Assembly (NCBI GenBank): GCA_028875875.1
Contig: JAGWUV010000020.1
Span: 1-64,000 of the forward strand
Direction: 5' to 3'
Length of the DNA: 64,000 nucleotides
Source of the DNA: Bacteroidota bacterium
GTDB taxonomy: Bacteria; Bacteroidota; Bacteroidia; Chitinophagales; Chitinophagaceae
Below the pieces are notes generated by a model. That model had not been told where the DNA came from, did no database searches, and saw only the letters and a list, made by a program, of their open reading frames with translations. Shown here in pieces: positions 19,885 to 30,982 of the stretch. The translations under genes were made by a program, and so were the position numbers. Positions within the stretch are counted from its first letter, which is position 1. Every line of letters begins with the position of its first letter.

Positions 19885-19914
19885 TTTGTCTATCAGATGA
19901 ATGGACTATATTTG
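19885..19914 (+). promoter_or_regulatory. Promoter of the sulfate-assimilation operon
   Basis: The -7 element TATATTTG (19907-19914) is an exact TAnnTTTG match. An upstream TTTG (19885-19888) lies 18 bases before it, the position of the Bacteroidota -33 element. Transcription would start near 19920, giving an untranslated leader of about 55 bases before the Cys-rich mini-ORF. Confidence 0.6.
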
Positions 19915-19976
19915 TCCCATCATTTTAGTAGACTTTTATTTTAAGACCAATGCATAACCAGAACCAGATAAAGCAA

Positions 19977-19997
19977 ATGTGTACCTGTTGTTGTTAA
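19977..19997 (+). CDS. Putative cysteine-rich leader peptide MCTCCC
   Basis: Six codons read MCTCCC and end in TAA; four of the five residues after Met are cysteine, all TGT. It lies between the promoter at 19885-19914 and cysH, and it ends 22 bases before the first cysH ATG. The last three Cys codons lie in the 5' arm of the hairpin at 19987-20015. Leader peptides with runs of the end-product amino acid are the hallmark of ribosome-mediated attenuation, and poly-Cys upstream ORFs controlling sulfur genes have been described in mycobacteria. A ribosome stalling here when Cys-tRNA is scarce would open the hairpin and free the cysH start region. The sequence is seen directly; the mechanism is inference. 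Confidence 0.6.
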   Translation: MCTCCC

Positions 19998-20015
19998 TTC
20001 CCTAACAATTTCAAC
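19987..20015 (+). promoter_or_regulatory. Hairpin overlapping the Cys codons, candidate translational attenuator
   Basis: TTGTTA (19991-19996) pairs perfectly with TAACAA (20003-20008) around the loop ATTCCC. GTTG (19987-19990) can further pair with CAAC (20012-20015) across a 3-base bulge. The 5' arm covers the last three Cys codons of the leader peptide, and the 3' arm ends 4 bases before the ATG at 20020. There is no following U tract, so translational rather than transcriptional control is more likely. Confidence 0.45.
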
Positions 20016-20019
20016 CGTA

Positions 20020-20769
20020 ATGATCTCTTTTAAAACAACACAAGCTTTATCAACAATGGAACTTACGCCAACCGACACAATAGCAGCACTTAAAAAAACA
20101 GTTGAATCCCTTTCTCCTGAAGCCTCCCTCCGATTTTTCCAGGAACAATTCCCAGATGAAGTCACTTTTTCTTCTAGTTTTAGTTTCGAAGACCAGGCTA
20201 TCACCCACATGATTGCCGAAAATGCCAAGGACATCAAACTATTCACGCTTGATACGGGCAGATTATTTGCAGAAACCTATTCGGTTTGGAGCAGTACTTT
20301 ACAACGGTATAACTTACCTATCAAAGCTTACTATCCTGACTTGTCTTTATTAGAGCCATTTGTTGAACAAAACGGCCCTAACGCATTTTATGATTCGGTT
20401 GAGAACAGGAAAAGCTGCTGTTACATAAGAAAAGTTGAACCTCTACAAAGAGCATTAAAAGGAAATAAAATCTGGATCACCGGATTAAGAGCCGAACATT
20501 CTCCGGCCCGGCAGGACCTGGAACAACTGGAGTGGGACGAAGTGAACCAGATCATCAAATATCATCCTCTTTTACATTGGAACACCGATGAAGTAAAAAG
20601 CTTTATCAATAAAGAAAGCATTCCGTACAACCCTTTACACGATAAAGGATTCATCAGCATTGGCTGTGCACCTTGCACAAGAGCTATCAAAGTCGGAGAA
20701 GACTTTAGGGCTGGAAGATGGTGGTGGGAAGACAACAGTAAAAAAGAGTGTGGTTTGCACGCAAAATAA
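20020..20769 (+). CDS. cysH: Adenylylsulfate (APS/PAPS) reductase
   Basis: Up to 249 residues; the ATG at 20056 (MELTPTDTIAAL) is an equally plausible start. The enzyme reduces adenylyl sulfate to sulfite with thioredoxin or glutathione electrons. It has the PP-loop-like segment FSSSFSFEDQAITHM, the pair SCCYIRK (Cys-Cys) and the pair GCAPCTR (CxxC). Together these bind a [4Fe-4S] cluster, the mark of APS-type enzymes. The C-terminal ECGLH carries the catalytic cysteine. Because of the cluster, and because no APS kinase gene is in the cluster, APS is the likely substrate. It is the first structural gene of the sulfur operon, preceded by the Cys leader. Confidence 0.95.
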   Translation: MISFKTTQALSTMELTPTDTIAALKKTVESLSPEASLRFFQEQFPDEVTFSSSFSFEDQAITHMIAENAKDIKLFTLDTGRLFAETYSVWSSTLQRYNLPIKAYYPDLSLLEPFVEQNGPNAFYDSVENRKSCCYIRKVEPLQRALKGNKIWITGLRAEHSPARQDLEQLEWDEVNQIIKYHPLLHWNTDEVKSFINKESIPYNPLHDKGFISIGCAPCTRAIKVGEDFRAGRWWWEDNSKKECGLHAK

Positions 20770-20831
20770 AATTCATTCACAAAATGATCACTCACTTAAG
20801 AACTTTGCAGAGTGATTTTAAAATAAAAAAG

Positions 20832-21740
20832 ATGAAACAATACAGATTAGATCATTTAGACCAGTTGGAGTCGGAAGCCATTCATATTATGCGTGAAGTA
20901 GCTGGTCAGTTTGAACGCCCTGCCCTTTTATTCAGTGGTGGCAAGGATTCCATTGTGCTGGTTCATTTAGCGTTGAAAGCATTTCGCCCCGGAAAATTTC
21001 CTTTCCCTTTGGTGCATATTGATACTGGTCACAATTTTCAGGAGGCATTAGACTTCAGGGATCAGCTGGCAGAAAAATTAGGTGAGAAACTAGTTGTGAG
21101 AAGTGTGGAAGATACTATTAAAGCACAAAATTTAACCGAACCCAAAGGAAAGTTTGCCAGCAGAAATGCTTTGCAGACATATACATTATTAGATACCATT
21201 AACGAATTTAAGTTTGATGCCTGCATTGGCGGCGCAAGAAGGGATGAAGAAAAAGCCAGGGCTAAAGAAAGGATCTTTTCTGTAAGAGATGAATTTGGTC
21301 AATGGGATCCTAAACGTCAACGCCCTGAATTATGGAATACCTATAACGGTAAAATTCAGAAAGGCGAAAATGTAAGGGTGTTCCCGATCAGCAATTGGAC
21401 CGAGTTAGATGTGTGGAATTATATCCGCAGGGAGAAGATCGAACTGCCTTCCATTTATTTCGCCCATGAAAGAGAAGTGTTAGAACATGAAGGACAACTG
21501 GTTGCAGTTTCAAACTTCATACAAATTGAACCAACAGATAATATCTCCGTTAAAAAAGTAAGATACAGAACCGTTGGTGATATGACATGTACAGCCGCTG
21601 TTGAATCTTCTGCTTCAAACATTGATGATATCATCAATGAAATTATTGCTACCAAAACAAGTGAGCGTGGTGAAACAAGAATTGATGATAAAGTATCAGA
21701 GGCTGCGATGGAAGACAGGAAAAAGAACGGATACTTTTAA
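20832..21740 (+). CDS. cysD: Sulfate adenylyltransferase small subunit
   Basis: About 302 residues from the ATG at 20832 (MKQYRLDHLDQLESEAIHIM). The frame is open from 20748, but that part overlaps cysH and is not homologous. This PP-loop subunit adenylates sulfate with ATP to form APS. The loop is LLFSGGKDSIVLVHLA, followed by HIDTGHNFQEALDFRD, GGARRDEEKARAKER and FPISNWTELDVW. The length is normal. It works as a heterodimer with CysN, encoded 71 bases downstream. A TTAAGAACTTTGC sequence 20-30 bases upstream could act as an extra internal promoter, but this is uncertain. Confidence 0.96.
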   Translation: MKQYRLDHLDQLESEAIHIMREVAGQFERPALLFSGGKDSIVLVHLALKAFRPGKFPFPLVHIDTGHNFQEALDFRDQLAEKLGEKLVVRSVEDTIKAQNLTEPKGKFASRNALQTYTLLDTINEFKFDACIGGARRDEEKARAKERIFSVRDEFGQWDPKRQRPELWNTYNGKIQKGENVRVFPISNWTELDVWNYIRREKIELPSIYFAHEREVLEHEGQLVAVSNFIQIEPTDNISVKKVRYRTVGDMTCTAAVESSASNIDDIINEIIATKTSERGETRIDDKVSEAAMEDRKKNGYF

Positions 21741-21811
21741 CTATAAAGGTGCGGATGAAAGAATGATGAAACATCATTCAGATTTCTTAACAACTCATAA
21801 CAAAATAACTC

Positions 21812-23053
21812 ATGGATATTTTAAGGTTTATTACTGCAGGTAGTGTTGATGATGGGAAAAGTACATTAATCGGAAGATTATTGTATGATAGTAAATCGAT
21901 TATGATCGATCAACTGGAAGCAATAGAAAAACAAAGCAAGAACAGGGAAGAAGGCGAGATTGACCTGGCTTTATTAACAGATGGTTTACGTGCCGAACGT
22001 GAGCAGGGAATTACCATTGATGTTGCTTACAAATATTTTTCAACCCCAAAAAGAAAGTTCATCATTGCCGATGCCCCGGGGCATATCCAATATACCCGTA
22101 ATATGGTTACAGGCGCATCGAATGCTGATTTGATAATTATTTTAATAGATGCCCGCCACGGTGTAGTAGAACAAACCCGCAGACACTCTATCATCGCTTC
22201 TTTGCTAAAGATTCCTCATGTTGTAGTAGCCATTAATAAGATGGATATGGTTAACTACTCCCAGGATGTATTCAATAATATTGTGATTGATTATTCAACA
22301 GTTGCAAAATCATTAGGTCTGCCGCAGGTAACCTACATTCCAATGAGTGCACTGAATGGAGACAATATTGTTGACAAAAGCGATAAACTGAGTTGGTTTG
22401 ATGGAGAAACTTTATTGAACTTCCTTGAAAATGTAGAAGTACAAAATGATGTTAATCTTACTAATGCAAGGTTTCCTGTTCAATATGTCATTCGTCCTCA
22501 AACAGAAGAACTACATGATTACAGGGGATATGCAGGAAAAATCATAAGTGGTATTTATCGTAAAGGAGATACCGTTACCATTCTTCCAGCAGGATTACAA
22601 AGTAAAATCGCAAGTATTGAATTAGGTGGAAAGGAAGTGAAAGAAGCATTTGCTCCACAAAGTGTGATCTTGCAACTGGAAGATGATATTGATATTAGTA
22701 GAGGCGATATCATTGTCCCAGGCAATCACCTGCCAAAAGTTGAACAAGAATTAGATGTATTACTCTGCTGGATGGATAGTAAACCTTTAACTGAAGGTAG
22801 TCGTTATTTAGTACAGCTAAATAGTAAAACCGTAAAAGGAATTGTGAAAGAGATAGAATATAAATTGGATGTAAATTCTCTTGAAAAACAATTTGCTCCT
22901 GAAAAGGTAAGCTTAAATGATGTAGTAAAAGCTAAAATAAGAACAGCTTCTCCACTGCCATTCGACTCTTATGGCGATTTACGTGTAAATGGAGGTGCCA
23001 TTTTAATAGATGAAACCAGTAATGTAACGGTAGGTGCATGTATGATTCAGTAA
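21812..23053 (+). CDS. cysN: Sulfate adenylyltransferase large subunit (GTPase)
   Basis: A 413-residue elongation-factor-like GTPase whose GTP hydrolysis drives APS formation by CysD. The G1 motif is GSVDDGKST, G3 is DAPGH followed by IQYTRNM, and G4 is NKMDM. Switch I surrounds the RAEREQGITIDVAYKYF segment. Domains II and III (residues about 215-410) are EF-Tu-like barrels. The protein ends soon after domain III, so there is no fused APS kinase (CysC), consistent with direct APS reduction by CysH. Confidence 0.96.
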   Translation: MDILRFITAGSVDDGKSTLIGRLLYDSKSIMIDQLEAIEKQSKNREEGEIDLALLTDGLRAEREQGITIDVAYKYFSTPKRKFIIADAPGHIQYTRNMVTGASNADLIIILIDARHGVVEQTRRHSIIASLLKIPHVVVAINKMDMVNYSQDVFNNIVIDYSTVAKSLGLPQVTYIPMSALNGDNIVDKSDKLSWFDGETLLNFLENVEVQNDVNLTNARFPVQYVIRPQTEELHDYRGYAGKIISGIYRKGDTVTILPAGLQSKIASIELGGKEVKEAFAPQSVILQLEDDIDISRGDIIVPGNHLPKVEQELDVLLCWMDSKPLTEGSRYLVQLNSKTVKGIVKEIEYKLDVNSLEKQFAPEKVSLNDVVKAKIRTASPLPFDSYGDLRVNGGAILIDETSNVTVGACMIQ

Positions 23054-23082
23054 GCAAGATTCTTAACCTTTAAGTATGTGAT

Positions 23083-23916
23083 ATGGACCAGCAATCTTTC
23101 ATAAAACATCTCTTTATTCATAATTCTAAATCCTTTTCTGCTTTCCCTGATAAAGAATCTGCAGAAAACTTTATAGACTTATTATTCGATTTCCTATTTC
23201 TGCCCAAGAGTGTAAAACACAAACAGGTTGCAGATCTTGAAAAAGAATTCGAATCTTTAAAAAACCATTTTTCAAGCCTGGTTTTTGATGTTGTATTCGA
23301 TCAGCAAAAAGCCCAGGAAGCCTGTACTATTTTTTTTGATCGTTTACCTCTCATTTATAATTCGCTTTTGAAAGATGCCGAAGCTGTTCTGCAATTTGAT
23401 CCGGCAGCAAAAAGTGTTGAAGAAGTACTAGTAGCCTATCCCGGCTTTTATGCTACAGCAATTTATCGTTTATCACACCAATTACTTAAACAGGATATCA
23501 AAATATTACCAAGATTATTTACTGAATACGCACATAGTAAAACTGGAATAGACATACATCCCGGTGCAGAGATCGGAGAATCGTTTTTTATTGATCATGG
23601 TACAGGTATTGTAATCGGAGAAACTACAACTATTGGCAATAATGTAAAAATATACCAGGGTGTAACCTTAGGTGCTTTAAATGTATCAAAAGATAAAGCT
23701 CAAACCAAGCGCCACCCAACGATTGAAGACAATGTGATCATTTACTCGGGTGCAACTATTCTTGGTGGAGATACTGTAATTGGTCATGATAGTGTGATCG
23801 GAGGGAATGTATGGCTTACCTACAGTGTACCCTCTTTTTCTGTTGTATACCACAAAAGTGAAATAAGGGTAAAGGATAACAACCCATTGCCAGAAGCTTT
23901 GAATTTTGTGATTTAA
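23083..23916 (+). CDS. cysE: Serine O-acetyltransferase
   Basis: A 277-residue enzyme that acetylates serine to O-acetylserine, the carbon acceptor for sulfide. The N-terminal helical domain (residues about 1-140) is longer than in short EpsC-type enzymes. The left-handed beta-helix has hexapeptide repeats with IDIHPGAEIGESFFIDHGTG, IVIGETTTIGNNVKIYQGVT, KRHPTIEDNVIIYSGATILG and the catalytic His in DHGTG. CysE is usually feedback-inhibited by cysteine through its C-terminal region. It stands 29 bases after cysN and just before cysK. Confidence 0.92.
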   Translation: MDQQSFIKHLFIHNSKSFSAFPDKESAENFIDLLFDFLFLPKSVKHKQVADLEKEFESLKNHFSSLVFDVVFDQQKAQEACTIFFDRLPLIYNSLLKDAEAVLQFDPAAKSVEEVLVAYPGFYATAIYRLSHQLLKQDIKILPRLFTEYAHSKTGIDIHPGAEIGESFFIDHGTGIVIGETTTIGNNVKIYQGVTLGALNVSKDKAQTKRHPTIEDNVIIYSGATILGGDTVIGHDSVIGGNVWLTYSVPSFSVVYHKSEIRVKDNNPLPEALNFVI

Positions 23917-23930
23917 AAAGGTGCACAAAG

Positions 23931-23958
23931 AACAAAGCGTACAAGAGTGCGACGCAAC
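23931..23958 (+). repeat. Interspersed intergenic repeat, copy A
   Basis: Holds the core GTACAAGAGTGCGACGCAAC at 23939-23958, preceded by AACAAAGC. The bases ACGCAAC at its end pair with GTTGCGT just downstream (a 7-bp stem with a 4-base loop). It lies in the 91-base gap between cysE and cysK, inside the presumed operon. Confidence 0.7.
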
Positions 23959-24007
23959 AGAAGTTGCGTTTATGAACTACAGTTGAAAACATTAAACATA
24001 TAATCAA

Positions 24008-24919
24008 ATGAAAGCAAGCAACATTCTAGCTACTATTGGTAATACACCGCATGTAAAGATCAACCGCTTATTTGGTAATGACCATGAAGTATGGATCAAA
24101 TTGGAAAGAACCAATCCCGGCTCAAGCATTAAAGACCGTATTGCATTGGCTATGATTGAAGATGCCGAACAAAAAGGTTTACTGAATAAAGACAGTGTAA
24201 TTGTAGAACCTACATCGGGTAATACCGGCATTGGACTAGCTTTGGTTGCGGCTGTTAAAGGCTATAAGATTATTTTGGTGATGCCTGAAAGCATGAGCAT
24301 TGAAAGAAGAAGATTGATGGCCTTATACGGTGCTGAGTTTGTTTTAACACCAAGAGAAAAAGGAATGAAAGGTGCTTTGGAAAAGGCACAGGAAATTGTG
24401 AGTACAACACCTAATGCCTGGATGCCGCAACAATTTGATAATCCCGCCAACACAGACATACACAGGAAAACAACTGCACAAGAAATTATCAACGATTTCC
24501 CAGAAGGAATTGACTATGTAATTACAGGAGTTGGAACCGGTGGACATATAACCGGTGTTGCTGAAGTATTAAAACAAAAGTTTCCTTCTATAAAAGTATT
24601 TGCCGTGGAGCCTGAGGCGTCTCCTATTTTAAGTGGCGGCAATCCTGGCCCTCATCCATTGCAAGGTTTGGGCGCTAACTTTATCCCTTCTATCCTGAAT
24701 ACAAAAATTCTTGATGGCATTATTACTGTTGGAAAGGATGAAGCCTTTTCTCATGCACAAAGAATGGCGAAAGAAGAAGGGATACTGGTAGGTATCTCAA
24801 CCGGAGCATCGTTGGCTGCAGTAAGCAAGAAATTATCTGAAATACCTAAAGGCGCAAAAGTGCTGACTTTCAACTACGACACAGGTGAAAGATATTTATC
24901 TATCGAAGGATTGTTTTAA
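24008..24919 (+). CDS. cysK: Cysteine synthase (O-acetylserine sulfhydrylase)
   Basis: A 303-residue PLP enzyme that replaces the acetyl group of O-acetylserine with sulfide. The PLP lysine is K42 in NPGSSIKDR. The substrate loop is [20 protein letters not shown], and the phosphate-binding loop is [16 protein letters not shown]. The beta8A-beta9A region matches CysK more than the thiosulfate-using CysM, but the two cannot be separated with certainty by eye. The protein ends the cysteine-forming half of the cluster; the genes after it encode sulfite reduction and siroheme synthesis. Confidence 0.94.
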
Positions 24920-24948
24920 TTAAACGATCAGTTTTTAAAGAACACCAC

Positions 24949-25800
24949 ATGAGTGAAGCAACCAAAGGCAAGGTGATATTAGTGGGTGCCGGACCTGGCG
25001 ATCCAGATTTGATTACTATTAAAGCTGTAAACTATCTTCAACAAGCCGAAATAGTTTTAACAGACCGGTTGGTAAGCACAGAGATTCTCAATAGGTATGT
25101 ATCTGCACATGCTATAATCATTGAAGTGGGGAAACAATGCAGAAGAGGAATCTCCACACCGCAACCTACCATTAACGAATTATTGGTTTACTATGCTTTA
25201 CAAGGCAAGTTGGTAGTACGTTTAAAGGGTGGAGATGTTGCTTTTTTTTCCAATGTATTAGATGAACTTGAAACGTTGGTAAAGCACAACATTGCATATG
25301 AAATTGTGCCCGGCATTACAGCTGCTTCAGGAGCATCAGCATATGCAGGTATTCCACTCACAGCAAGAGATCATGCCACTGCCGTTCGCTTTCTCACCTA
25401 TCATAAATCAACCATCATCCCCAATGGTCATTGGAAAGAACTAGCATCTACGGATGATACGCTTATCTTTTATATGTCTTCTGAAACCCTGGACTTATTG
25501 GTTGATAAACTTGTAGAGCATAATGCAGCCGGCGATAAGGAGTTGGCCGTGATTGAACAAGCTACAACACCTTACCAGCAAGTATATTCATGCCGATTGC
25601 ATGATTATGTAAAGCAGCTAAAAGGAAAAAAATTTTTATCACCATCATTAGTTATTGTAGGGAAAGTAGTGGGTTTACAAAAAGAATTTGCATGGTTCAA
25701 TAGCAACAATGCAAATGGAGCCTTTTATTTTAAACCATTAACAGGTGTAGTAGGAAATCTGGATAATTATTCAAATAACAAGTATGCTGACAGAGCCTAA
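24949..25800 (+). CDS. cobA: Uroporphyrinogen-III C-methyltransferase
   Basis: A 283-residue SAM-dependent enzyme that makes precorrin-2, the precursor of the siroheme used by sulfite reductase. The N-terminal VILVGAGPGDPDLITIKA and the SAM-site VPGITAASGASAYAGIPLT are diagnostic. The usual RLKGGDPFVFGRG motif is altered to VRLKGGDVAFFSN, which is unusual but keeps GGD. About 25 residues at the C-terminus extend beyond the common SUMT length. It overlaps the cysJ start by 17 bases, indicating translational coupling. Together with the siroheme-synthase fusion gene, it completes siroheme synthesis. Confidence 0.93.
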   Translation: MSEATKGKVILVGAGPGDPDLITIKAVNYLQQAEIVLTDRLVSTEILNRYVSAHAIIIEVGKQCRRGISTPQPTINELLVYYALQGKLVVRLKGGDVAFFSNVLDELETLVKHNIAYEIVPGITAASGASAYAGIPLTARDHATAVRFLTYHKSTIIPNGHWKELASTDDTLIFYMSSETLDLLVDKLVEHNAAGDKELAVIEQATTPYQQVYSCRLHDYVKQLKGKKFLSPSLVIVGKVVGLQKEFAWFNSNNANGAFYFKPLTGVVGNLDNYSNNKYADRA

Positions 25801-27475
25801 ATTAAAAGCAATACAAGATCTGGTACACAGTTCTACCAGAGAAGAACTGATCTGGATCAACGGTTACCTGAGCGCTCTATTAACTGATGCGAAAGCTGAG
25901 CAAGCAAAGAGTTCTGTAAACAAGATCACCATTGTTTATGGAACTGAAACAGGTAACTCAAAAAAAGTTGCTACCGACTTTGCTGCTAAAGCAAAACAGC
26001 AAAACATACAAGTTAAACTAAGCAGTTTAGAGCAATACAGATTAAATGATCTTCCAAAAGAAGAATATTTATTTGTTGTGATCAGTACACAGGGAGAAGG
26101 CGAACCTCCAACAGGTGCTAAGAAGTTTTATGATCATATACACCATAACGGCTTTAAAGTAGAAAAGTTAAGATATAGTGTTTTAGCTTTAGGAGACACC
26201 TCTTATCCCCTGTTTTGTAAGGCCGGCGAAGATATTGATACACAATTGGCAAAACTTGGCGGTCAACGTATAACCCCTTTACAGAAATGCGATGTTGATT
26301 TTGAAACGGCTGCAACAGAATGGCTGAACCAGGTTTTACATCTATTGAAAAATGGAACTTCCGTTCACCCGTTGGGGACCAAAGCCAATACAGTTGCTAT
26401 TTCTACAAAGGCAAAAGAGAAAAAAATATGGAAAGGGAATATTCTTTCCAAAGTCAACCTGCATGCAGAAGGTTTAGAAAGAACAACCTATCATATTGAA
26501 CTTGGCGCTGATGAGGTGGAGTATGAATCTGGTGATACTATCGGAATCGTACCTCCTAACCCACTTCACATTGTAGAAGAAATCATTGCACTAACAGGTA
26601 TTGATCCTAACAAACAAATTATTTATAAGAAAGAAGAGTTTTCAGTTAAAGATCTGCTACACAAAAAGCTTAGCATACAATACCTCCATGAAAGAGTAGT
26701 AAAAAAATATGCAGACATAGTAGAACAAGAGATACCGGAGACTAAAATGGATTTGTTGCAGTTACTAAAAATTTATCCTGTTAAAAACGAATTGCAATTT
26801 GAAGATGTTTTACAAGTATTAAATCCACAAGCCCCAAGATTATATAATATAGCTTCTTCACCACAAGTGCACAGTGGAGAGGTACACATTACTGTTGCCA
26901 AAGATGATTTTGAAGTGAATGGTAATAAACTTACAGGCGTGGCCTCCAATTATTTTTCATTATTACAAGAGAATGATTCGGTTGAATTCTTTGTACAAAA
27001 GAACAAACGATTCCGCTTACCGGCTCCAGATAAAAAAGTAATTATGATTGGCCCTGGTACAGGTATTGCTCCATTCCGCTCCTTCTTATTTGAAAGAGAT
27101 GCAACAGGAGCTACAGGTGAGAACTGGCTATTCTTTGGAGAGAAAAAATTCACTACCGATTTCTTATACCAAACTGAAGTGCAGAATTGGTTTCAAACAG
27201 GTGTATTGCAAAAAGCTACTGTAGCTTTTGAAGAAGAACAGGGAGCTTCAAAAAAAGTACATGATAAAATAAAAGAAAAAAGTACAGAATTATTCCAATG
27301 GATACAAAGCGGAGCATATGTTTATGTATGTGGCGAAAAAGATCCTATGAGTGTTTTGGTAGAAGATGCTTTATTAGAAGTAATTATGCAGGAAGGGAAA
27401 CTATCTGATGAAGAAACTCTGGCTTATTTTACTAAACTGAAAGATGAAGGCCGCTATATTAAAGATGTTTACTAA
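25784..27475 (+). CDS. cysJ: Sulfite reductase flavoprotein subunit
   Basis: A 563-residue diflavin reductase that passes electrons from NADPH through FAD and FMN to the sulfite reductase haemoprotein. The flavodoxin domain (residues about 45-185) begins TIVYGTETGNSKKVATDFAA. The FAD domain holds RLYNIASSPQ and GVASNYFS. The NADP domain holds MIGPGTGIAPFRSFLFER, YVCGEKDPMSVLVEDALL and the C-terminal aromatic KDVY. An N-terminal extension of about 45 residues precedes the flavodoxin. It overlaps cobA and precedes cysI. Confidence 0.94.
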   Translation: MLTEPKLKAIQDLVHSSTREELIWINGYLSALLTDAKAEQAKSSVNKITIVYGTETGNSKKVATDFAAKAKQQNIQVKLSSLEQYRLNDLPKEEYLFVVISTQGEGEPPTGAKKFYDHIHHNGFKVEKLRYSVLALGDTSYPLFCKAGEDIDTQLAKLGGQRITPLQKCDVDFETAATEWLNQVLHLLKNGTSVHPLGTKANTVAISTKAKEKKIWKGNILSKVNLHAEGLERTTYHIELGADEVEYESGDTIGIVPPNPLHIVEEIIALTGIDPNKQIIYKKEEFSVKDLLHKKLSIQYLHERVVKKYADIVEQEIPETKMDLLQLLKIYPVKNELQFEDVLQVLNPQAPRLYNIASSPQVHSGEVHITVAKDDFEVNGNKLTGVASNYFSLLQENDSVEFFVQKNKRFRLPAPDKKVIMIGPGTGIAPFRSFLFERDATGATGENWLFFGEKKFTTDFLYQTEVQNWFQTGVLQKATVAFEEEQGASKKVHDKIKEKSTELFQWIQSGAYVYVCGEKDPMSVLVEDALLEVIMQEGKLSDEETLAYFTKLKDEGRYIKDVY

Positions 27476-27547
27476 TGAAGTGCATCGAATGATAAGTAAG
27501 AAGTGAATATTGAATTTTATTTTTTGAATTTTGAATTAACCAGGATC

Positions 27548-29224
27548 ATGTCTGAACAAAATAATTTATCTGCAATAGAAAAAATAAAAATGAAAAGCGA
27601 TGGTTTACGCGGTACCATTGCAGAAAGTTTACAGGATGAACTTACAGGGGCTATACGTGAGGATGACCAGGCCTTGTTGAAATTTCATGGTATGTATCAG
27701 CAGGATGACCGCGACCTTCGTGAATCAAGGGCTGAAAGTAAGTTAGACCGCTTATATTCTTTCATGATCCGTTTACGCTTACCGGGGGGCTTTTTAAATC
27801 CTGACCAGTGGATAGCCGTTCATAATGTTGCAGGTGAAAACACTACAGGCGTTATTAAAATAACTACTCGTCAAACTATTCAGTTACATGGATTGCTAAA
27901 AGCCAATATTAAACCTACGATCCAGGCTTTTAATAAGGTAAAACTTGACTCCATTGCAACTTGCGGAGATATTAACCGTAATGTACTCTGCAGTTCACAT
28001 CCAAAACAATCACCGATACACGCTGAAATATTTGCCTATGCAGATGAGATCAGCAGTTTACTGATGCCAAAAACAAAAGCCTATTACGAAATATGGCTAG
28101 ATGAAGAAAAGATTGTAGATAAAAAAGACGAAGAAGATCCGTTGTACCAGGATAGGTACCTGCCACGTAAATTCAAAATTGGTATTGTTATTCCTCCCAA
28201 TAATGATATAGATGTTTTTGCAAATGATCTTGGTTTAATTGCAATCATAGAAAACAATAAATTACTTGGTTTCAATGTTGCTGTGGGTGGCGGTTTATCT
28301 ACCACTCACGGTAATCCTCAAACTTATGCAAGACTAGCTACTGTTTTAGGATTTGTTAGTACGGAAGAATCAAAAGAAAAATTATTTAAGACCATTTATG
28401 AAATAGCTACTATACAAAGGGATTACGGTAACAGAAGTGATAGAAAATTAGCTAGAATAAAATATACCATTGACAGGGTTGGTGTAGAATGGTTTAAAGA
28501 AGAAATTGCCAGGAGAACAGGTTTTGCTTTAGAGCCAGCCCGCTCATATAGTTTTACTGAAAGAACAGATTATTTTGGATGGCAACAAAACAATGAAGGT
28601 CTATGGTATTATACAGTTTTCTCAGAAAACGGAAGAGTATTGGATGATGAGAATGCTGCAACAAAAACAGCCTTATTGGAAATTGCCAAAACAGGTAAAG
28701 CTAACTTCCGTTTCACATGCAATCAAAATGTAATTGTGAGTGATGTAAAAGAAGAAGATAAAGCAACTGTGCACCAAATACTACAAGAGTTTAATGTTAT
28801 TCAATTTACTGAAAAAAGTTCTTTGATCAGGAAGAACTCAATGGCCTGTGTTGCCCTACCAACTTGTCCGCTTGCGTTTGCAGAAGCACAACGTTACTTG
28901 CCAACACTTATTTCTAGAATAGAACCATTACTGGAAAAACATAAATTAACTGAAGAAGAAATAATTATAAGAATGACCGGTTGCCCGAATGGATGCGGAC
29001 GTTCTCATGTTTCAGAAATAGGTTTTGTAGGAACTTCTCTTGGTAGGTATAATTTACATTTAGGTGGTGATCATTGCGGAGAGAGATTAAATACCATCTA
29101 TAAAGAAAACCTGGATGAAAATGGTATACTGCTGGAGTTGGATCAACTGTTCGGCAATTTTGTTAAAGACAGAAATAAAGGAGAATCCATAGGCGATTAT
29201 GCTGTAAGAAAAAAACTAGTATAA
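27548..29224 (+). CDS. cysI: Sulfite reductase haemoprotein subunit
   Basis: About 558 residues from the ATG at 27548 (MSEQNNLSAIEKIKMKSDGL). The upstream ATG at 27503 adds a non-homologous 15-residue stretch. It catalyses six-electron reduction of sulfite to sulfide. Two ferredoxin-like half-domains each have a siroheme-binding arginine region (TTRQTIQLHG). The [4Fe-4S]/siroheme cysteines are in CVALPTCPLAF (CX5C) and GCPNGCGRS (CX3C). Pairing with CysJ indicates the NADPH-type enzyme rather than a nitrite reductase. A weak 6-bp hairpin (29213-29218 with 29225-29230) spans its stop codon; no U tract follows. Confidence 0.95.
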   Translation: MSEQNNLSAIEKIKMKSDGLRGTIAESLQDELTGAIREDDQALLKFHGMYQQDDRDLRESRAESKLDRLYSFMIRLRLPGGFLNPDQWIAVHNVAGENTTGVIKITTRQTIQLHGLLKANIKPTIQAFNKVKLDSIATCGDINRNVLCSSHPKQSPIHAEIFAYADEISSLLMPKTKAYYEIWLDEEKIVDKKDEEDPLYQDRYLPRKFKIGIVIPPNNDIDVFANDLGLIAIIENNKLLGFNVAVGGGLSTTHGNPQTYARLATVLGFVSTEESKEKLFKTIYEIATIQRDYGNRSDRKLARIKYTIDRVGVEWFKEEIARRTGFALEPARSYSFTERTDYFGWQQNNEGLWYYTVFSENGRVLDDENAATKTALLEIAKTGKANFRFTCNQNVIVSDVKEEDKATVHQILQEFNVIQFTEKSSLIRKNSMACVALPTCPLAFAEAQRYLPTLISRIEPLLEKHKLTEEEIIIRMTGCPNGCGRSHVSEIGFVGTSLGRYNLHLGGDHCGERLNTIYKENLDENGILLELDQLFGNFVKDRNKGESIGDYAVRKKLV

Positions 29225-29449
29225 TAGTTTCAGATTTAGTGTAATCTTTACAAGAATGAACTAAGAAAGTAAATTAATACATATAGCTTTTATTATACCG
29301 GATTTATTTGATGGCTCAACTATATCTTTTTACAGATATTTAATTAAGAAAAAAACTCTAATAACAGCTCCTGAAATTTATCTTCAAAAATCAACTCATT
29401 CAATCTGTTTAAGGAACAAACAAAAGTGTAAAGTGTTTAATTAATCTAT

Positions 29450-29457
29450 TAAATTTG
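29450..29457 (+). promoter_or_regulatory. Candidate -7 promoter element (TAAATTTG) of the fusion gene
   Basis: An exact TAnnTTTG match 13 bases before the TTG start at 29471. The 246-base gap after cysI otherwise shows no coding frame, so the fusion gene may have its own transcript besides read-through from the sulfur operon. Confidence 0.45.
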
Positions 29458-29470
29458 TAGGATAATATTT

Positions 29471-30982
29471 TTGAGCTTGGAACAATCAAATACGCTATTC
29501 CCGGTTTTTTTAAAACTAGAACAATTACGTTTATTAATTGTGGGCGGCGGTGTTGTTGCAGCAGAAAAATTAAATGCAGTTTTAGCCAATTCACCACAAA
29601 CAAAAATTAAGTTAGTCGCTATAGATATTAATGAAGAAGTTAGATCTATAGCTCTTCAATATCCTAATATTGATCTTCATAAAAAAATCTTCGAACCGGC
29701 TGATCTGGATAATTCAGATATTGTCATCGCAGCTGTGAACAATATTGATACAGCTACCGAGATACAGAATGCTGCAAAAGCAAAAGGCATACTAATTAAC
29801 GCAGCAGATAAACCAGACCTTTGCGATTTTTATTTAGGCTCTATCGTTAAAAAAGGGAATCTGAAAATTGCAATTTCAACCAATGGCAAATCTCCTACTA
29901 TTGCTAAAAGACTGAAGCAGGTATTGACTGATATGTTACCGAATGAAATGAATGACCTGCTGAATAATATGCAAACCATACGCAACGAATTGAATGGAGA
30001 TTTTTCAGAAAAAGTTAAACAACTTAATGATCTCACGAAAGTACTTGTTGCAAAACAAACCTCTTTAAATGAGATTTCTTTAAAGCCTCCTAAAGAAAAG
30101 AAATGGCAAAAAATTGTTAAGTGGTGTCTGTTTGCTTTTCTATTCATGATTGTTGGACACTCCTTATTTTCAATTATTCCTGTAGGTCCCTTTAATGAAA
30201 TCATTCATTCTATTCCGCAATATATAGATGTAAAAACCTTTAGCATCATGTTGCTAACAGGATTTATTGCACAAATGGTTGATGGATCATTGGGAATGGG
30301 TTATGGAACGATTTCTACCACATTTCTTCTAGCCAATGGAGTTAACCCAGCCATCGTAAGTAGCCGTGTACACTCTGCACGTGTTTTTTCAAGTGGTGTT
30401 TCAGGATATAGTCATCATCGTTTTGGTAACATTAATAAAAAACTATTTAAAACATTAGTAGTTCCTGGAATTATTGGAGCTGTTTTAGGAGCAACACTTG
30501 CATTCGTGGGTCAGAGATACGCAAATTATGTACGTTTACCGTTAGCAATATATACGCTTTATCTGGGCTATTACATTGTACGCAAAGCATTTTCTGTAAA
30601 TAAACCACAAAGCAAGGTTAAGAACGCCGGCTGGTTGGCCAGTATTGGAGGATTTATGGATGCCTTTGCGGGTGGCGGCTGGGGAGCCTTAGTAACAAGT
30701 ACACTTATTTCTAAAAGAAAAAGTCCGCGTTATGTAATAGGATCTGTTTGCCTTGCTGAATTTTTTGTTGTGTTTTCCAGTGCGGTAACATTTTTTATTT
30801 TATTAAAACACATTCCCATAGCCGATGTTGCCGGGCTAATATTAGGTGGCCTGATCGCTGCACCGATTGCCGCAAGACTGGTTGGAAAACTACCTCTTAA
30901 AACAATGTATCTGGCGGTTGGAGGAATGGTAATTTTAACAAGCATTATCACTTTCTGGAAAGTGCTGTCTCAACTTTTATAA
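29471..30982 (+). CDS. Fusion: CysG-type precorrin-2 dehydrogenase/ferrochelatase + TSUP (TauE/SafE) transporter
   Basis: A 503-residue protein starting with TTG. Residues about 8-155 match the Met8/CysG Rossmann domain: RLLIVGGGVVAAEKL (25-33 loop), AAVNNIDTATE, and INAADKPDLCDFYLGSIVKK with the catalytic-type Asp at D113, then NGKSPTIAKRLKQ. This part should oxidise precorrin-2 and insert iron to make siroheme. After a helical linker, residues about 215-500 form a TSUP membrane domain of about eight helices (LLTGFIAQMVDGSLGMGYGT, AGGGWGALVTSTLISK). TSUP proteins move sulfite, sulfate or other sulfur anions. The gene follows cysI and ends the sulfur region, so the transporter may take up sulfate, since no other sulfate permease is present. 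The fusion is seen; direction and substrate are inference. Confidence 0.9.
   Translation: MSLEQSNTLFPVFLKLEQLRLLIVGGGVVAAEKLNAVLANSPQTKIKLVAIDINEEVRSIALQYPNIDLHKKIFEPADLDNSDIVIAAVNNIDTATEIQNAAKAKGILINAADKPDLCDFYLGSIVKKGNLKIAISTNGKSPTIAKRLKQVLTDMLPNEMNDLLNNMQTIRNELNGDFSEKVKQLNDLTKVLVAKQTSLNEISLKPPKEKKWQKIVKWCLFAFLFMIVGHSLFSIIPVGPFNEIIHSIPQYIDVKTFSIMLLTGFIAQMVDGSLGMGYGTISTTFLLANGVNPAIVSSRVHSARVFSSGVSGYSHHRFGNINKKLFKTLVVPGIIGAVLGATLAFVGQRYANYVRLPLAIYTLYLGYYIVRKAFSVNKPQSKVKNAGWLASIGGFMDAFAGGGWGALVTSTLISKRKSPRYVIGSVCLAEFFVVFSSAVTFFILLKHIPIADVAGLILGGLIAAPIAARLVGKLPLKTMYLAVGGMVILTSIITFWKVLSQLL

Follow-up and report, generated by a model that had tools for sequence, protein, structure and literature searches.

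What controls a set of sulfate-assimilation genes that is preceded, in a Bacteroidota bacterium of the family Chitinophagaceae, by a short reading frame ending in a run of cysteine codons? The question was raised by a 64,000-nucleotide stretch of DNA (hereafter the window), in which cysH (20056-20769, + strand; PF01507, 1.1e-43; NF002537, 9.3e-80), encoding a phosphoadenylyl/adenylyl-sulfate reductase, is the proposed regulated gene. The cysH start was set at 20056 and not at the in-frame ATG 20020 because the relatives begin with ME... there, and no Shine-Dalgarno sequence was seen on reading the sequence upstream of it; translation initiation in Bacteroidota proceeds largely without Shine-Dalgarno pairing. 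Behind cysH, genes of the same direction (20751-30982, + strand) form a putative operon and, with names interpreted from their Pfam domains, follow in the order CysD-like, CysN-like, serine acetyltransferase-like, CysK-like, TP_methylase (SUMT-like), CysJ-like, sulfite reductase-like and siroheme-synthase/TauE fusion. The fusion is a single ORF (29471-30982) that combines a siroheme-synthase NAD-binding domain with a TauE/SafE exporter domain.

The original prediction had placed a six-codon ORF with four Cys codons ahead of cysH. Read directly, positions 19977-19997 (+ strand) are indeed ATG TGT ACC TGT TGT TGT TAA, that is, MCTCCC and a stop, with Cys codons at 19980-19982 and 19986-19994. 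The sequence is as described, but the leader ORF is longer: the frame is already open at ATG 19950, so that MCTCCC closes an ORF of 15 codons (19950-19997, + strand), MHNQNQIKQMCTCCC, of a kind conserved in relatives. As is general for ribosome-stalling leaders, the ORF is short and carries clustered codons for the amino acid that the downstream genes make. No Rfam covariance model matched anywhere in the window at gathering score. An antisense ORF of 101 codons (19941-20246) overlaps the leader and was taken as spurious.

A near-consensus promoter had also been proposed in front of the leader, and promoter-like boxes were found there, TTTG (19885-19888) and TATATTTG (19907-19914, + strand), separated by an 18-nt spacer; from the consensus, we take them to be a Bacteroidota-type promoter (19885-19914). 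The predicted -7 box ends 35 nt before ATG 19950, and for 42 of 58 cysH leaders a TAnnTTYG match was found no more than 80 nt upstream (6.6 in shuffled sequences). A pattern search revealed an operator-like palindrome, GTCTA-N9-TGGAC (19888-19906), which spans the promoter spacer, and a second, imperfect operator-like site, GTCCCATCATTTTAGTAGAC (19914-19933), was recognized by eye, although it does not match the strict pattern GTCYW-N9-TRGAC. This pattern was present in 35 of 157 cysH upstream regions, a set that, like the 90 cysS regions, includes some duplicate species (shuffled 0.2), and in none of the 90 cysS upstream regions. Judging from these patterns, a DNA-binding regulator acting on the cysH palindrome (GTCYA-N9-TRGAC) is likely to provide a second layer of control. 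At the relative locus L003, the palindrome falls within the first cysH codons (1459-1477).

Leaders of this kind recurred in relatives. ATG mini-ORFs with clustered Cys and no more than 40 codons were counted against 100 dinucleotide-shuffled rounds, after removal of loci sharing a 40-mer (which reduced the cysH set from 157 to 132). They stood upstream of the gene at 55 of the 132 non-redundant cysH loci (mean of the shuffles 0.92, maximum 5) and at 29 of the 88 cysS loci (mean of the shuffles 0.49, maximum 3), which confirmed the conservation upstream of cysH that had been named as a check. The remaining 77 cysH and 59 cysS loci had no leader under this criterion. These counts are lower bounds, as L231, L238 and L251 also show Cys-rich mini-ORFs by eye, and a looser filter gave leaders at 67 of 157 cysH and 31 of 90 cysS loci. 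The 157-locus set leaves out 13 distant loci without leader (L018-L030, of which L019 has only 4 nt upstream) as well as two named loci whose upstream sequence is shorter than 200 nt, L074 and the leader-bearing L058. The best ten cysH relatives on named contigs were 66-73% identical and came mostly from Chitinophagaceae or Bacteroidota MAGs, plus one Sediminibacterium strain. Among 80 named loci, a Cys-rich mini-ORF lay in the 500 nt preceding cysH in 22, including those of Taibaiella chishuiensis, Puia dinghuensis, Sediminibacterium goheungense and a Hydrotalea MAG; the other 58, in which cysH is not necessarily the first gene, had none within that distance, among them all those of Spirosoma, Larkinella, Epilithonimonas and Capnocytophaga.

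The recurrence was specific for cysteine. In a table of all 20 amino acids (157 cysH and 90 cysS loci), Cys mini-ORFs numbered 66 and 29, and no other residue stood far above its shuffled level; before cysH, the second residue by ratio was Thr (8 versus 3.1 shuffled; 157 loci), and Leu mini-ORFs were frequent yet at their shuffled level (21 versus 22.4; 157 loci). The final Cys adjoins the stop codon in 47 of 60 cysH and 24 of 29 cysS leaders, with TGT and TGC mixed. The leader ORF, its recurrence and its Cys specificity rest on sequence and statistics. The Cys clusters of the peptide could also belong to a functional mini-protein with a metal or redox role, but outside Cys the peptides have little common sequence by eye and vary in length, and the Cys run is positioned at the stop codon, which makes such a product very improbable.

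Alternatively, an internal promoter that uses the TTG repeats as its -33 box might make the codons a by-product of a DNA signal. Such a signal would fit the cysS gaps, 14 of 29 of which contain a TAnnTTYG box (shuffled 1.4), with TTG 16-23 nt before it in 9 of the 14, and cysS homologues without a leader carry TAnnTTYG within 160 nt in 51 of 60 cases (shuffled 8.1). It does not fit cysH, where the box was found in only 4 of 58 gaps (shuffled 3.5) and where all 67 runs of at least three TGY codons on the forward strand of the 157 upstream regions have an in-frame ATG, and 48 have a stop within two codons, compared to one and one, respectively, of the six runs on the reverse strand. We therefore regard this explanation as scarcely credible. 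In the cysS gaps of L203, L206, L207, L208, L211, L215 and L229, a promoter-like TAnnTTTG follows the poly-Cys codons, whose TTG repeats lie 16-23 nt before it; in L203, this box sits within a T-rich tract behind a terminator-like hairpin.

Within the window's own genome (3.5 Mb), three Cys codons followed by a stop (TAA or TGA) occur at 64 places, every one of which was examined, and two of them, those before cysH and cysS, form an ATG mini-ORF shortly before a gene that could be recognised. Of the 64, 58 were flagged because an ORF of 80 codons or more, on one strand or the other, encloses them; the window's leader is one of these, on account of the antisense ORF mentioned above. Among the six unflagged places, the only ATG mini-ORF was MQFIQLSVFCCCC (L198:1474-1515), 75 nt before the cysteinyl-tRNA synthetase gene cysS (TIGR00435, 4.5e-124). 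At four further places (L349, L393, L416 and L423), an ATG mini-ORF lies within a long ORF, and nothing longer follows it than frames of 64-79 codons, which lay outside the family searches. In the window's family, cysS leaders were found in 20 of the first 30 loci, where they are 11-17 codons long (21 in one case) and stop 45-86 nt short of the gene, and in 9 of the next 60; outside the family, none of 26 cysS loci, drawn from 143 genomes with a cysS match there, had a leader. TAnnTTYG occurred within 80 nt before 24 of 29 cysS leader starts (shuffled 1.9), and the promoter-like box ended 4-7 nt before the start in 21 of 23 that were measured, so the cysS leader ORFs may be nearly leaderless. 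Since many relatives keep it, the arrangement before cysH, with its counterpart before cysS, is probably a sensor of cysteine shortage that uses stalled ribosomes, and that the window's leader is a Cys-sensing attenuator of some kind is very likely in our judgement.

How such a leader could act on cysH was addressed by folding. The original prediction had assigned the last three Cys codons to the 5' arm of a hairpin whose 3' arm reaches the cysH start. A hairpin with its 3' arm just before the start was predicted, but its 5' arm corresponds to leader codons 6-11 and includes only the first Cys codon. In this start-occluding stem, GATAAAGC (19967-19974, + strand) pairs with GCTTTATC (20044-20051; mean probability 1.00) and TGTGT (19978-19982) with ACACA (20038-20042; 0.97), so that the 5' arm spans 19967-19982 and the 3' arm 20038-20051, stopping 4 nt short of the cysH ATG. 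CCA (19958-19960, + strand) is predicted to pair with TGG (20057-20059) at the start codon itself (mean pair probability 0.81), and the last Cys codons are predicted to form an inner hairpin (19990-20009, + strand; GTTGTTA/TAACAAT; 0.93) with 20003-20009 behind the leader stop. The 135-nt fold surpassed its shuffles in stability only moderately (z = -1.89), with 7 of 200 shuffled sequences folding equally well. Folded alone, 19978-20075, the stretch from MCTCCC, was no more stable than shuffles (z = 0.44; 129 of 200 as good); the fold needs the upstream leader codons.

The effect of a ribosome was modelled by forbidding pairing within its footprint and calculating the cost of opening 32 nt, from -20, around the cysH start. 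Opening was predicted to cost 13.2 kcal/mol without a ribosome. With a footprint of -15 to +11, the cost was 3.2, 3.0, 5.7, 8.7 and 8.8 kcal/mol for a ribosome with its A-site at 19980, 19986, 19989, 19992 and the stop, respectively, and with a footprint of -12 to +12 it was 3.2, 5.7, 8.7, 8.9 and 12.6 kcal/mol for the same five A-sites. When the gap was shuffled, the mean free cost was 5.2 and the mean gain 0.92, and the observed gain of 10.2 was reached by 1 of 200 shuffles. In this model of the window, the start would likewise be opened (3.2-4.2 kcal/mol) by a ribosome at several earlier positions (codons 19962-19977), ahead of the Cys codons, which means that specificity would rest on where the ribosome waits; the model tells where a waiting ribosome would help, not that one waits there.

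These results are consistent with the following mechanism, in which the stem and its release by the ribosome are predicted, and leader translation, stalling and the response to cysteine are what we infer. The mRNA made from the promoter at 19885-19914 would have as its first ORF the leader (19950-19997), which ends Cys-Thr-Cys-Cys-Cys. With ample Cys-tRNA, the ribosome would complete the leader and depart, leaving codons 6-11 to pair with the 14 bases that immediately precede the cysH start and thereby keep it closed. When Cys-tRNA is scarce, the ribosome would stall at the first Cys codons and cover the 5' arm, which would leave the cysH start free and allow the sulfate-assimilation genes to be translated. 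A second poly-Cys leader lies before cysS in this genome. The proposal that Cys-shortage stalling frees the cysH start thus agrees with the conservation of the leader, with its confinement to Cys genes within the own genome and with the structure model, and we consider it quite probable that the window carries a ribosome-stalling cysteine attenuator that works on translation, by occlusion of the cysH start, in the manner of the poly-Cys leaders of mycobacteria.

Conservation of the stem in relatives, as opposed to that of the Cys codons, was borne out in part. Across 38 divergent cysH leaders, the window's excluded, the last 48 nt matched their own start region better than those of the others (P = 0.0008), and the test restricted to the last 24 nt was not significant (P = 0.11). 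For 60 cysH leaders, with loci left out where no start could be placed, comparison of the last 27 nt with the start region gave P = 0.0005, a statistic that, unlike the 38-leader test, ignores relatedness. A leader-to-start stem made of differing sequences was kept in L297, L327, L002, L066, L058 and L031, as in the pairs TGCAATTGTT/AACAATTGCA (L297) and CGTGTTG/CAACACG (L002 and L066). Clear release of the start was confined to some of the leaders: over 56 cysH leaders, the mean accessibility gain was 1.89 versus 0.93 in shuffled gaps (Wilcoxon p value = 0.007), but a gain beyond shuffles at P ≤ 0.1 was seen in only 16 of them, with many gaining nothing, and the free opening cost was no higher than in shuffles (8.41 versus 8.57). 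This analysis skipped 4 of 89 leaders (L006, for which a wrong distal ORF had been taken, L016, L300 and L304). As modelled, start occlusion is clear in the window and in some relatives, not in all cysH leaders. For the cysS leaders as a set, neither the accessibility-gain nor the leader-start pairing test showed occlusion, and their start regions were less structured than shuffles (5.01 versus 6.17); the cysS leader of the own genome was an exception, with a gain of 4.8 versus 0.6 in 20 shuffles.

Alternatively, the same Cys-sensing leader could act through premature transcription termination before the gene, intrinsic or Rho-dependent, in place of start occlusion. Of 29 cysS leaders, 21 had an anti-Cys word no more than 16 nt past the stop (gap-shuffled 3.4, maximum 7), and 7 had terminator-like sites with short stems (shuffled 1.2, maximum 3). 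At cysH, the anti-Cys word was present in 10 of 58 leaders (shuffled 4.1, maximum 9), but terminator-like sites in none of the 58, the window's included (shuffled 1.4, maximum 5), and by this simple custom scan the cysH leaders, unlike a classical transcription attenuator, have no intrinsic terminator between leader and gene. The Rhodobacterales cysS motif uORFC-8-2 is interpreted by its authors as a terminator attenuator (PMC8632094), and Rho has been suggested for actinobacterial cys leaders (PMC1262725). The stem of the window, on the other hand, accounts directly for start occlusion, and we consider termination an unlikely output there.

Poly-Cys leaders were also found before other genes. 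At some loci without a cysH leader, a poly-Cys mini-ORF of the same strand was found further away, 3.8-8.7 kb upstream, in front of a different gene: an O-acetylhomoserine sulfhydrylase in L075 (TIGR01326; the same protein by N-terminus in L087), a TP_methylase in L098 (the same protein by N-terminus in L093 and L099) and, in L107, a 481-codon frame whose product was unassigned. The pattern of five Cys codons and a stop occurred in 128 of 395 genomes of the phylum, with many matches inside genes. Poly-Cys pattern searches yielded 56 loci with 20 mini-ORFs, 11 within long ORFs and 9 outside; 8 of these 9 have a downstream gene (cysS, 2; cysH, 1; PhyH, 4; TP_methylase, 1). In another family of the class (L152, L154, L157 and L159), leaders with 6-9 Cys precede a 268-aa protein that is PhyH by Pfam in L152 and has an identical N-terminus in the other three; in L157, a similar palindrome, GTCTA-N9-TAGAG, was seen by eye between promoter box and leader. 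In Mucilaginibacter (L086, L106, L110, L111, L112 and L130; minus strand), poly-Cys mini-ORFs in the vicinity of cysH precede a gene for a TonB-dependent receptor (about 983 aa), at a distance of 67-72 nt in five of the six loci; the receptor was assigned by Pfam on L106 only, and the SusC/RagA model scored below its cut-off.

A literature search outside subscription papers and supplements found no cysteine leader described for Bacteroidota, in agreement with the original prediction, which had known of none. In mycobacteria, stalling reportedly blocks a structure that sequesters the downstream ribosome-binding site (Canestrari et al. 2020, Mol Microbiol 114:93). Three papers on that system (PMC9031893, PMC9094748, PMC13236596) describe short leaderless ORFs with contiguous Cys codons ahead of cysteine genes, several per genome, and attenuation that depends on cysteine supply. 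The Bacteroidota leaders resemble these in their contiguous Cys codons ahead of cysteine genes and in the presence of more than one such ORF per genome, and would share the dependence on cysteine supply. They differ in phylum, in that the window's leader is not leaderless by its predicted promoter (those of cysS may be), and in that the window's stem covers the start region itself, with no Shine-Dalgarno sequence seen before cysH. Cys leader peptides with Cys runs near the stop have also been described for cys operons of Mycobacterium and P. acnes and for cbs of B. longum, with no conserved terminator hairpin and with Rho proposed by the authors (PMC1262725); the cysH leaders share the Cys runs near the stop and the lack of a terminator, and the window differs in its predicted leader-to-start stem. 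The uORFC-8-2 motif (PMC8632094) has two conserved tandem Cys codons in a stem and a terminator with a U-run; like the leaders found here, it is a tandem-Cys uORF before cysS with Cys codons within a stem, and it is set apart by our longer Cys runs and weak or missing terminator. Within Bacteroidota, leader-peptide attenuation, of the transcriptional kind, has been proposed before amino-acid operons of Flavobacterium psychrophilum, a similar arrangement for which the section on attenuation names no cysteine gene (PMC9723704), and leader-like sORFs are described in B. thetaiotaomicron (PMC7366714).

The principle is already known from mycobacteria, and the Bacteroidota leaders would be a variation of it. 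On balance, we lean towards a cysteine stalling regulon in Bacteroidota in which repeatedly arisen poly-Cys leaders would sense the charge of Cys-tRNA and act differently from gene to gene (by occlusion of the start at cysH, by some other mode at cysS), with a repressor-type operator as an added layer at cysH; it would comprise the cysH operon, cysS, the SUMT-like methylase, the O-acetylhomoserine sulfhydrylase, the TonB-dependent receptor and the PhyH dioxygenase. If true, control of cysteine genes by stalled ribosomes recurs in Bacteroidota with the start region, not a Shine-Dalgarno site, as the closed element, and the cysS leader would couple the synthetase to how well its own tRNA is charged. 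Genes without an established connection to cysteine, such as those for the PhyH dioxygenase and the TonB-dependent receptor, would likewise be marked by these leaders.
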